Of a DNA stretch of 64,000 bases, positions 6,070-9,086 are shown piece by piece. The notes under the pieces are model-generated. The model did not search any database. It had not been told where the DNA came from and worked only from the letters and a program-made list of their open reading frames with translations. How positions within the stretch are numbered: the stretch's first letter is position 1; the number at the start of each line of letters is the position of its first letter. This stretch comes from Archaeoglobaceae archaeon (GTDB taxonomy: Archaea > Halobacteriota > Archaeoglobi > Archaeoglobales > Archaeoglobaceae), in contig JALWDS010000004.1 in NCBI GenBank assembly GCA_027036775.1, forward strand, positions 62,001 to 126,000, in the 5' to 3' direction. A program made the position numbers and the translations under genes.

Positions 6070-8012
6070 CAGAGGGGACAGAACTCCCACTTTCCATCCC
6101 TTTCAACGATCTTCAGAATTTTAACTCCGTGTTTCTCGCAAACCTTTGAAGTTACGACCAACCTCCCCTTCTGAGGTAGCGGAAGGGAGAATTTGCACCT
6201 CGGATAGTTCGAGCATCCTACGAATCTCTTTCTCGCCCTCTTTACAATTAAGGTTCCACCGCATTCTGGACAAACGCCTATGGCGTTTTTCTCTATCTCC
6301 TCTTCTCTGTCCTTCTCTATTCCGTCTCTTATCATTTCGCCAAGCTTTTCCCTGTCAACGTCCTTCAAAACCCTACTCAGAAAAACAACGGATTCCTTCA
6401 GAACGACCTTTTCATCCATCTTTCCTTCCGCTATTGCCATCATGTCCCTTTCAAGCTTTGCGGTCATATCTGGTAGAGTTATAACTTCCGCAAAACTCTT
6501 CAAAGCGTTTACAACTGCGAAGGCCAAGTTTGTGGGTCTTATCGGATTTCCGTATATGTATCTCCTCTCGTAAAGCTTCCTTATTATCTCGTGTCTCGTT
6601 GACTTGGTCCCCAACCCCAAGTTCTCCATGACCTTTATCAGAGTTCCAGTCGTGAACCTTGAAGGCGGTTTCGTCTTTTCCCTCTTCACAATTTTCTCCT
6701 CAACCTTCAAAACCTCTCCGACCTTGAAGTCTGGTAATCTGTTCTCTTCGAACTTCGAATAGTCGTAGATAAATCTCCATCCCGGAAACAGAAGGACTTT
6801 ACCAATCGCCTTAAATCCGTGCTCGAACTCTACCCTCTTCACCTCCCACCTCGCCTTCGGCGATAGCGTGGCGAGAAATCTCTTTACTATGAGCTCGTAT
6901 ACGATCCACTCGTCCCTGCTTAAATTTTCTCTATTGGCCACAGCCGTTGGGTGAATGGGTGGATGATCTTTGGTCTCCTTCTTACCTCTTGAAGGCTCTA
7001 TACCGTGTTTCAAAACGAATTTGGCAAATTCTCTGAACTCGCTGTTTAGAAACATCTCGACCAACCTCTTGAGGTCGATCGTTTTAGGATATACCGTGTT
7101 GTCAGTTCTCGGATAGGATACGTAACCTTCCATGTAGAGGTTCTCCGCTACGCTCATAGCCTTATCTGGTTTCATGAATTTGGATGCTTCTTTCAAAAAC
7201 TCCGTCGTGTTGAAGGGAATGGGTTTCTTCTCCTCAACCAAGCTCTTCTGAAACTTCGTAACCCTCAGAAACTCTACGGATTCCAACAACCTTTTGGCTT
7301 CCTCCTCGCTCTCAAATTTTCTCTTCGCGTGTATCCCCTTCACCTTTACGATAGCGTTGTAGAAGTATTTGGACTTGAAAGATCTTATCTTCTCCTCCCT
7401 TTCAACTATCAGCCTCAAAGTCGGACTTTGAACCCTACCGACGCTTATGAAATCTTTGCCTAAGCGGTTTGCAGAGAGGGACAACAACCTCGTTAGAACC
7501 GCACCCCAAAGCAGATCGACCTTGTGCCTCACCTCGGCAGATTTTGCGAGGTTTAAATCTAAGTTCGTAGGGTTGGAGAAGGCTTTTTTGACGTCCGTGG
7601 GTGTGAGTGCACTGAATTTGACCCTATCGACCTTAACGTTCGGATTTACCTTCTCCACGAGCTTAACAGCAGTAAAACCGATGAACTCGCCTTCTCTATC
7701 GTAGTCCGTTGCAACCGTAACCCTCTTAGCTTTCTTCGCAAGCTCCAAAAGCGTTTTAACGACATTCTTATCTCTAACCTTAACGACGAACTTGGACTTT
7801 AAAAGGAGTTCCAAGGGAGTTCTTCTCCAATCGTTCAACTCTTCAGGGAAGTCGTATTCCACTATGTGCCCCTTCAAACCCAAAACTATTGCACCGTTGG
7901 AGGGAGAAATGTAGTAAGGAACGTCGTTCTTTTTTAAAGTTCTAACGTCTTTAAAAAGAATTCGGGCAATCCTCTTAGCGGATTTGTCCTTCTCCGCTAT
8001 TATTAGCCACAT
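6066..8012 (-). CDS. topA: DNA topoisomerase I (type IA)
   Basis: TOPRIM-like N-terminus, DYDREGEFIG, SVGRVQSPTLRLIVERE, EGYVSYPRTDNTVYP, C-terminal zinc finger CPECGGTLIVKRARKRFVGCSNYPRC. Confidence 0.95.
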   Translation of the reverse strand: MWLIIAEKDKSAKRIARILFKDVRTLKKNDVPYYISPSNGAIVLGLKGHIVEYDFPEELNDWRRTPLELLLKSKFVVKVRDKNVVKTLLELAKKAKRVTVATDYDREGEFIGFTAVKLVEKVNPNVKVDRVKFSALTPTDVKKAFSNPTNLDLNLAKSAEVRHKVDLLWGAVLTRLLSLSANRLGKDFISVGRVQSPTLRLIVEREEKIRSFKSKYFYNAIVKVKGIHAKRKFESEEEAKRLLESVEFLRVTKFQKSLVEEKKPIPFNTTEFLKEASKFMKPDKAMSVAENLYMEGYVSYPRTDNTVYPKTIDLKRLVEMFLNSEFREFAKFVLKHGIEPSRGKKETKDHPPIHPTAVANRENLSRDEWIVYELIVKRFLATLSPKARWEVKRVEFEHGFKAIGKVLLFPGWRFIYDYSKFEENRLPDFKVGEVLKVEEKIVKREKTKPPSRFTTGTLIKVMENLGLGTKSTRHEIIRKLYERRYIYGNPIRPTNLAFAVVNALKSFAEVITLPDMTAKLERDMMAIAEGKMDEKVVLKESVVFLSRVLKDVDREKLGEMIRDGIEKDREEEIEKNAIGVCPECGGTLIVKRARKRFVGCSNYPRCKFSLPLPQKGRLVVTSKVCEKHGVKILKIVERDGKWEFCPLC

Positions 8013-8398
8013 TACTTCTCTTCTTCAATAAGAACCGCATTGATCAGCCCCTCTTGGCTCGGTCTGTTGGTAACCTTTGCGAGTCCTATCTCCGTCTCGA
8101 TTATCGCTCCCTTTGTTATAACGTTCCTCCTCGCGTAGTGAACGTGAGCGGGATTTTCGACAACACCCTTAATCTCCACCCTCACGACCTTACCCTCTTT
8201 CGGAACGTAAACGTTTGCGTATTTATCTCTTACAAGCTTGACCTTGTAGTTCCCTCCTCTAACCCTCTCTATCTTGACCTTTCTCTCTCCTATGTGTGTC
8301 TCGGTTTGAGGTCTGCCCATTTCGTATTTTCTCTTCTTCCTGTGAGGTCTGTAAAGTCCTCCGCTTGGCTTTCTCCTACTCCTTCCCTGCCAGATCAT
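8012..8398 (-). CDS. 30S ribosomal protein S8e
   Basis: [42 protein letters not shown]...[36 protein letters not shown]. Confidence 0.95.
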
Positions 8399-8439
8399 GA
8401 AGGTTGTTCTTGAGCTGTATATTTAAAAACGTTACCCAA

Positions 8440-8550
8440 CGTCCTGACCCAGCCCGAAGGGGAGTGCAAGTTTATCTTGCACACTCCCCGACCTCCCCTA
8501 CTGGGGCTTCACAGTGGAAGCTCCCGACTTTAATCGGGGGAGGAGGTCAC
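8440..8550 (+). mobile_element. Solo right end of an IS605/IS607-type element: TnpB C-terminal coding relic plus hairpin-rich omegaRNA-like right end
   Basis: Frame 8441..8533 reads VLTQPEGECKFILHTPRPPLLGLHSGSSRL*, resembling TnpB C-termini ending in GSSRL/GSPRL. Nested hairpins: GGGGAGTGCAAG-tttat-CTTGCACACTCCCC and CTCCCGA-cttta-ATCGGGGGAG, then GGAGGTCAC. Confidence 0.6.
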
Positions 8551-9086
8551 CACCAGACATCTTTAAGCCCCAGCTTGTAGGCTATCACGTTCACAGAGAG
8601 GTGGAGGAGAGGTGTTACAACTAAACCCGTAACCAAGACGTCCCACGTAAACAGTCGGTAAAAGGCTTGACATCTACTCGCGGTTAGATACGCAACTACG
8701 AGAAACGTAAGCTGATCCAGTATGGGAAAGCTCCTTCCCCTCTCAACTCCAAAACGCCTCTTGATGAAACTACCAAAGGAATCTCCGATCATGGCTCCGA
8801 AGGAGAGAAGAAAAGCCAAAGTGAGAAAGGAACCGTAGGTTAGAGACGAGTATATCCTAACGTTGATAACCCTCTCGACGAGAATTTGAACGTGTGCAGT
8901 TAACAAACCTCCAATAACTCCTCCGATGAATCCCCTCCAAGTCTTTCCGTCCCCCAAAATCCTCTTACCGTCAATGAACTTCCTGCCAAAATCTATAGGC
9001 GTTCCTCCACCGAAGATCACAGCGAAGTTGTTGGGTGTGTATGCTGGAAGAAGTAACCAGATCGTTTTAAGTATCAGCTCGATCAT
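8547..9086 (-). CDS. carS: CDP-2,3-bis-(O-geranylgeranyl)-sn-glycerol synthase (CDP-archaeol synthase)
   Basis: WLLLPAYTPNNFAVIFGGGTPIDFGRKFIDGKRILGDGKTWRGFIGG...GDSFGSFIKRRFGVERGRSFPILDQLTF. Confidence 0.95.
   Translation of the reverse strand: MIELILKTIWLLLPAYTPNNFAVIFGGGTPIDFGRKFIDGKRILGDGKTWRGFIGGVIGGLLTAHVQILVERVINVRIYSSLTYGSFLTLAFLLSFGAMIGDSFGSFIKRRFGVERGRSFPILDQLTFLVVAYLTASRCQAFYRLFTWDVLVTGLVVTPLLHLSVNVIAYKLGLKDVWW

Follow-up and report, generated by a model that had tools for sequence, protein, structure and literature searches.

A 115-bp insertion between carS and rpS8e of an Archaeoglobaceae archaeon, probably a non-autonomous IS200/IS605-family element derived from a TnpB-side right end

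The window analyzed here is a stretch of 64,000 nucleotides from an Archaeoglobaceae archaeon (contig JALWDS010000004.1), whose assembly comprises ~1.53 Mb in 48 contigs. Three genes follow one another on its minus strand in the order carS, rpS8e and a long topoisomerase-like ORF, and the closest named relatives of carS belong to Archaeoglobales. The region between carS and rpS8e contains the features listed below.

8012–8398, minus strand: rpS8e, host flank, on the same strand as carS
8418–8429: TATA-like TATATTTAAAAA between rpS8e and the element, counterpart of the TATA-like box in the empty sites
8432–8435, plus strand: target tetranucleotide TTAC, the left cleavage site, present in both empty sites; would-be TAM of a cognate TnpB
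8436–8550, plus strand: probable non-autonomous IS200/IS605-type (PATE-like) insertion, a 5′-truncated omegaRNA region plus right end (from the empty sites and Rfam HgcC)
8444–8449, plus strand: CTGACC, 5′ half of an omegaRNA-type pseudoknot, forming 5/6 pairs with GGTCAC (8545–8550)
8456–8459, plus strand: GAAG, candidate left guide at the base of the left hairpin, a weaker assignment than at the right end
8459–8489, plus strand: left subterminal hairpin GGGGAGTGCAAG-TTTAT-CTTGCACACTCCCC
8504–8533, plus strand: TnpB-like C-terminal codons, GLHSGSSRL plus stop, as in the tnpB right ends of G042
8517–8520, plus strand: right guide GAAG, immediately 5′ of the hairpin and complementary to TCAC under the IS608 rule
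8521–8540, plus strand: right-end hairpin CTCCCGA-CTTTAA-TCGGGGG
8547–8550, plus strand: right cleavage site TCAC, the element end, whose complement gives the carS stop TGA, not TAA
8547–9086, minus strand: carS (CDP-archaeol synthase, a name taken from an earlier note), host flank and orthologue probe
8551–8570, plus strand: would-be omegaRNA guide, antisense to the carS 3′ end, placed as in the ISDra2 reRNA (PMC8612924)

The edges of the insertion are fixed by empty sites in two genomes of the same genus, where rpS8e directly follows carS without the 115 bp (G001, also L092, and G002, L038). On the plus strand, the empty site reads TTAC^CACC in both genomes (the caret marks the junction), and the occupied site reads TTAC^CCAACG...GGAGGTCAC^CACC, with the element terminus GGTCAC preceding CACC. 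The window flanks, once joined, align across the junction with both empty sites. Alignment with G001 and G002 shows that the TTAC target is kept as the left flank, that the right end is TCAC and that a target duplication is absent; the insertion is clean and lineage-specific. Because TTAC and TCAC share AC, the junction is ambiguous by 2 nt, and 8436–8550 was chosen by the IS605 rule. IS608 likewise inserts 3′ to TTAC, with a preference for TTAC^C (PMC5934647). The earlier note on this DNA had described a stranded IS605/TnpB right end of ~110 bp at 8440–8550. Its description of the sequence is accurate, but the extent is corrected to 115 bp, and the term stranded is only partly apt, as the whole segment behaves as a single precise insertion. 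The comparison of the carS 3′ end with relatives, which the note had proposed, found the site empty in both same-genus genomes; instead of conservation at the same locus, both have the carS–rpS8e pair without the element.

As the note had also stated, the stop codon of carS (minus strand, 8547–8549) lies within the element boundary. The carS terminus is ...GATGTGTGGTGG TAA in G001 and G002 and ...GATGTCTGGTGG TGA here, the TGA being supplied by the element. The TATA-like TATATTTAAAAA at 8418–8429 may, in principle, fire on either strand. The proposal of a bidirectional terminator between convergent-side genes loses its premise, since carS and rpS8e are in tandem on the minus strand and not convergent; the insertion is also absent from the relatives.

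Subterminal hairpins are present at both ends of the element (8459–8489 and 8521–8540), and both lead to GGGGGAGGAGGTCAC, which ends at 8550. RNA folding of 8436–8555 is better than that of shuffled sequences (z −3.5, with 1/200 as good). Folded alone as DNA, the left hairpin gives a z of −5.4 and the right hairpin, modestly better than shuffles, a z of −1.2. The ends of IS608 are recognized via a guide tetranucleotide located 5′ of each hairpin (AAAG/TTAC and GAAT/TCAA; PMC5934647). Read from these two cases, the rule would be that guide base 1 pairs with site base 2, guide base 2 with site base 1 and guide base 4 with site base 4, and the combination of GAAG and TCAC at the right end fits this rule. 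The same code extends to the relatives. Seventy-four right ends were gathered from the fetched loci, of which 46 were kept at <85% identity, and 43 of these have a GANN guide. In 38/43 of the deduplicated right ends, the fourth guide base forms a Watson-Crick pair with the terminal base (permutation mean 13.3; 0/20,000 shuffles reached 38), a count inflated by kinship among the right ends, although each of the three terminal bases is represented many times and in different families of the phylum. The pairs seen are GAAC with TCAG, GAAG with TCAC, and GAAT or GATT with TCAA. A separate class of right ends terminating in TCAA (L026/L003, L031, L035, L073 and L074) has GAGG before the hairpin, a misfit to the code, and a perfect TTGACC/GGTCAA pseudoknot.

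The left end of the element is a poor match to known left ends. Pairing of TTAC with the GAAG beside the left hairpin requires a G.T wobble, the expected guide being AAAG. Another candidate, AACG at 8438–8441, is an exact fit to the code for TTAC; it was rejected, being 2 nt from the cleavage site and having no adjoining hairpin. The left hairpin occupies the place of omegaRNA stem 2 in relatives, its position relative to L078 and L070 having been judged by eye.

The TnpB-like tail and strong hairpins described in the note are present, and the tail is shared with tnpB-linked right ends: those of the family member G042 encode ...KPSLNAGSSRL plus stop from the same GGAAGCTCCCGACTTTA DNA. Homologous right ends linked to tnpB were found in G025 (L078), G158 (L169) and G042 (L015 and L016). 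The best full-length DNA matches are both in G025, namely the tnpB right end L078 and the tnpB-less copy L070 (nhmmer E of 0.008 and 0.009, respectively). The tnpB of L078 has an 80% identical relative in G158 (L169), in which the RNA is sense at the tnpB 3′ end, and the G025 element has a broken tnpA upstream of its tnpB. The note's identification of an IS605/TnpB right end with omegaRNA-like structure is supported by the empty site, the TTAC and TCAC ends and the GAAG code, and is also backed by the tail shared with G042 and the tnpB-linked right ends of G025 and G158.

Near copies within the host genome, which the note had proposed to look for, were not found: a DNA search returned only the element itself, and a DNA search of 149 relatives gave nothing beyond short right-end matches. 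The host genome does have numerous sister right ends, some linked to tnpB and others not, and it has tnpB genes whose catalytic motifs are intact. A search at E 1e-30 found no L078-type TnpB there, and TnpA (PF01797, Y1 transposase) was not found either, in an assembly that is cut at IS copies; one Y1 transposase is present in the same-genus genome G002. Two tnpB copies that are 95% identical (L007 and L009, on contigs C46 and C27) are both cut by contig ends. Since tnpB copies are cut in this way, the assembly may lack tnpA or a full element, and the absence is uncertain.

A pseudoknot is seen in the relatives, in which the six terminal bases next to the flank pair with the loop of the first hairpin. 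Loop and tail change in a compensatory manner (CTGACC/GGTCAG, GTGACC/GGTCAC, TTGACC/GGTCAA and GTGAGC/GCTCAC), and pairing is complete (6/6) in 21/46 right ends, compared to 6.4 for shuffled tails, with a maximum of 12 in 300. The scaffold of the window element is incomplete. Stem 1, which displays the loop in L078 and L070, has no 5′ arm here, and the outermost of the six pseudoknot pairs is C.C. A complete omegaRNA would thus be unlikely to form from this element, as the 5′ arm of the loop-presenting hairpin has been lost.

The Rfam model HgcC (RF00062) matches 8462–8562 with 34.3 bits and an E of 6.5e-6, below its gathering score of 50. Other Rfam matches in the region (Yfr1, NEAT1_2, ceN65 and ceN89) have E of 3.9 or more and were taken as chance. 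The function of HgcC, an archaeal RNA family, is still an open question in the literature (PMC5732400). In Thermococcus kodakarensis, three HgcC RNAs begin within transposase genes in the sense orientation, and one HgcC RNA of Pyrococcus furiosus runs antisense to such a gene (PMC4247193). HgcC-like matches occur in 63/295 genomes of the phylum, and many of these sequences are IS605 right ends, often beside tnpB. Most of the 24 readable loci (of 25) from the phylum search end in a hairpin followed by GTCA[N]; nine have a sense tnpB just upstream, and one (L150) has an antisense tnpB. At L007 and L009, the models of HgcC and haloarchaeal sot0042 (RF02656) overlap on the tnpB right end, both below threshold, and sot RNAs are regarded as omegaRNAs (PMC12558985). 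The phylum-wide picture suggests that the HgcC family consists of transposon ends.

Canonical, high-scoring HgcC sequences have a different arrangement, being antisense at the tnpB 5′ end (L024/L002, L075/L111 and L080/L106), next to tnpB genes whose motifs GVD[LF]G, E and DLNAS are intact. The left end, TCAC...GAAG-hairpin, contains the tnpB 3′ end in L106 and L111, where HgcC terminates at TCAG with the guide GAAC. In the elements that were examined, tnpB is directed toward the left end and HgcC toward the right, and a TATA-like box (TTTATAA or similar) is located ~28 nt upstream of the HgcC RNA start, in the tnpB start region. The antisense order is also seen in L003/L026 and, in another family, in L150. 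Most HgcC-like places in the host genome have no full tnpB within 1.5 kb. In several solo copies outside the window (among L017–L023), tnpB is deleted apart from vestiges of its start, and the left end is kept together with a complete HgcC that has promoter-like sequence. The canonical layout departs from the usual one, in which the omegaRNA is found at the 3′ end of tnpB. We tentatively propose, at somewhat less than even odds, that HgcC is the omegaRNA of IS200/IS605 TnpB elements, with a canonical branch divergently transcribed from its own promoter. Solo copies, the window element among them, would then be derivatives that have no tnpB, and some might act in trans for a TnpB. A literature search of incomplete coverage found no joint treatment of HgcC and TnpB, and novelty is unproven. 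The identity of HgcC with omegaRNA is our inference; the right-end code and pseudoknot in common open the function of HgcC to direct test.

We interpret the 115 bp as a non-autonomous IS200/IS605-family element of the PATE type that arose from an IS605-type transposon, namely from its right end on the tnpB side (probability about 0.9). It shows the traits of this type, with subterminal palindromes and without terminal inverted repeats, a target duplication or a transposase gene. Most of the 3′ omegaRNA scaffold region of the parent right end is retained, and transposition would presumably have proceeded as a single strand, with TnpA, the Y1 transposase, acting in trans. The element may have moved in its present 115-bp form; alternatively, a longer one inserted at TTAC, and its core was deleted afterwards at the site. 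The latter course is a real possibility, if not the favored one: the leftmost 8 bp do not resemble the other left ends observed and directly abut the interior of omegaRNA stem 1, and deletions down to terminal-only elements are documented in Haloquadratum (PMC3119063), but a hairpin and an adjacent GAAG stand where a left end needs them, so that a transposase might accept the short form as it is.

Two further readings give the sequence a present role. A working solo omegaRNA would be transcribed from the plus strand and, with the guide at 8551–8570, direct a TnpB acting in trans to cut the empty carS allele, whose repair would restore the element. The 3′ scaffold and pseudoknot halves are in place, tnpB genes with intact catalytic motifs reside in the same genome, a TATA-like box is just upstream, and the guide, tested over its first 17 bases (8551–8567), has its own site as its sole genomic occurrence within 2 mismatches. 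The missing stem 1 arm, the C.C pair and the failure to find the closest cognate TnpB type in the genome nonetheless make this reading improbable; a working guide RNA is unlikely from an omegaRNA that is 5′-truncated in a genome where no cognate TnpB was found. The note's suggestion that the right end might still yield a small RNA is weakened by the same features. The strong, G+C-rich hairpins and the weak HgcC match could also indicate a regulatory element of the host, a terminator, or an HgcC RNA gene of the chromosome that is not a transposon end. The empty sites in both same-genus relatives contradict this, and with the precise insertion signature and tandem genes they leave it a very slight chance, lower still than that of a working solo omegaRNA.

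The non-autonomous element is most likely inert, its RNA function probably lost. Current mobility is not expected, as neither TnpA nor a cognate TnpB was found in the genome, unless these lie in assembly gaps. At present, the element would be a passive passenger that has swapped the carS stop from TAA to TGA and widened the carS–rpS8e spacer, with the end of the CarS protein and the TATA-like box of rpS8e apparently unchanged by the insertion. It is a fairly ordinary IS605 derivative, a real remnant of mobile DNA, and a clean case, with two empty sites and exact boundaries, of a TnpB right end that lacks its nuclease. Its wider interest lies in tying the HgcC RNA family to the TnpB system; if the divergent tnpB/HgcC pair is expressed as it looks, an omegaRNA would be made independently of tnpB mRNA processing.

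The closest known counterparts are the PATEs of Haloquadratum walsbyi (PMC3119063), which are also IS605-related, lack terminal inverted repeats and target duplications, carry near-terminal palindromes, are too short for a transposase and occur even where TnpA is broken. The window element differs from them in host group and sequence, and in a right end that keeps a recognizable omegaRNA scaffold and TnpB tail codons. It resembles IS608 in its TTAC^C target and in the pairing of guide with cleavage site, and ISDra2 in that the reRNA/omegaRNA of the latter derives from the right end and takes its guide from the flank. Unlike both, it has neither tnpA nor tnpB, is 115 bp long and has TCAC with GAAG instead of TCAA with GAAT. 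The likeness to HgcC (RF00062) consists of the covariance-model match, the same terminal hairpin, the GGAGGTCA[N] end and the CTGACC loop motif; the element is, however, below the gathering score and without the 5′ stem arm, whereas canonical HgcC sequences here end in TCAG with the guide GAAC. The sotRNA/omegaRNA model of haloarchaea (RF02656) overlaps HgcC in the sister elements L007 and L009, but does not match the window element.
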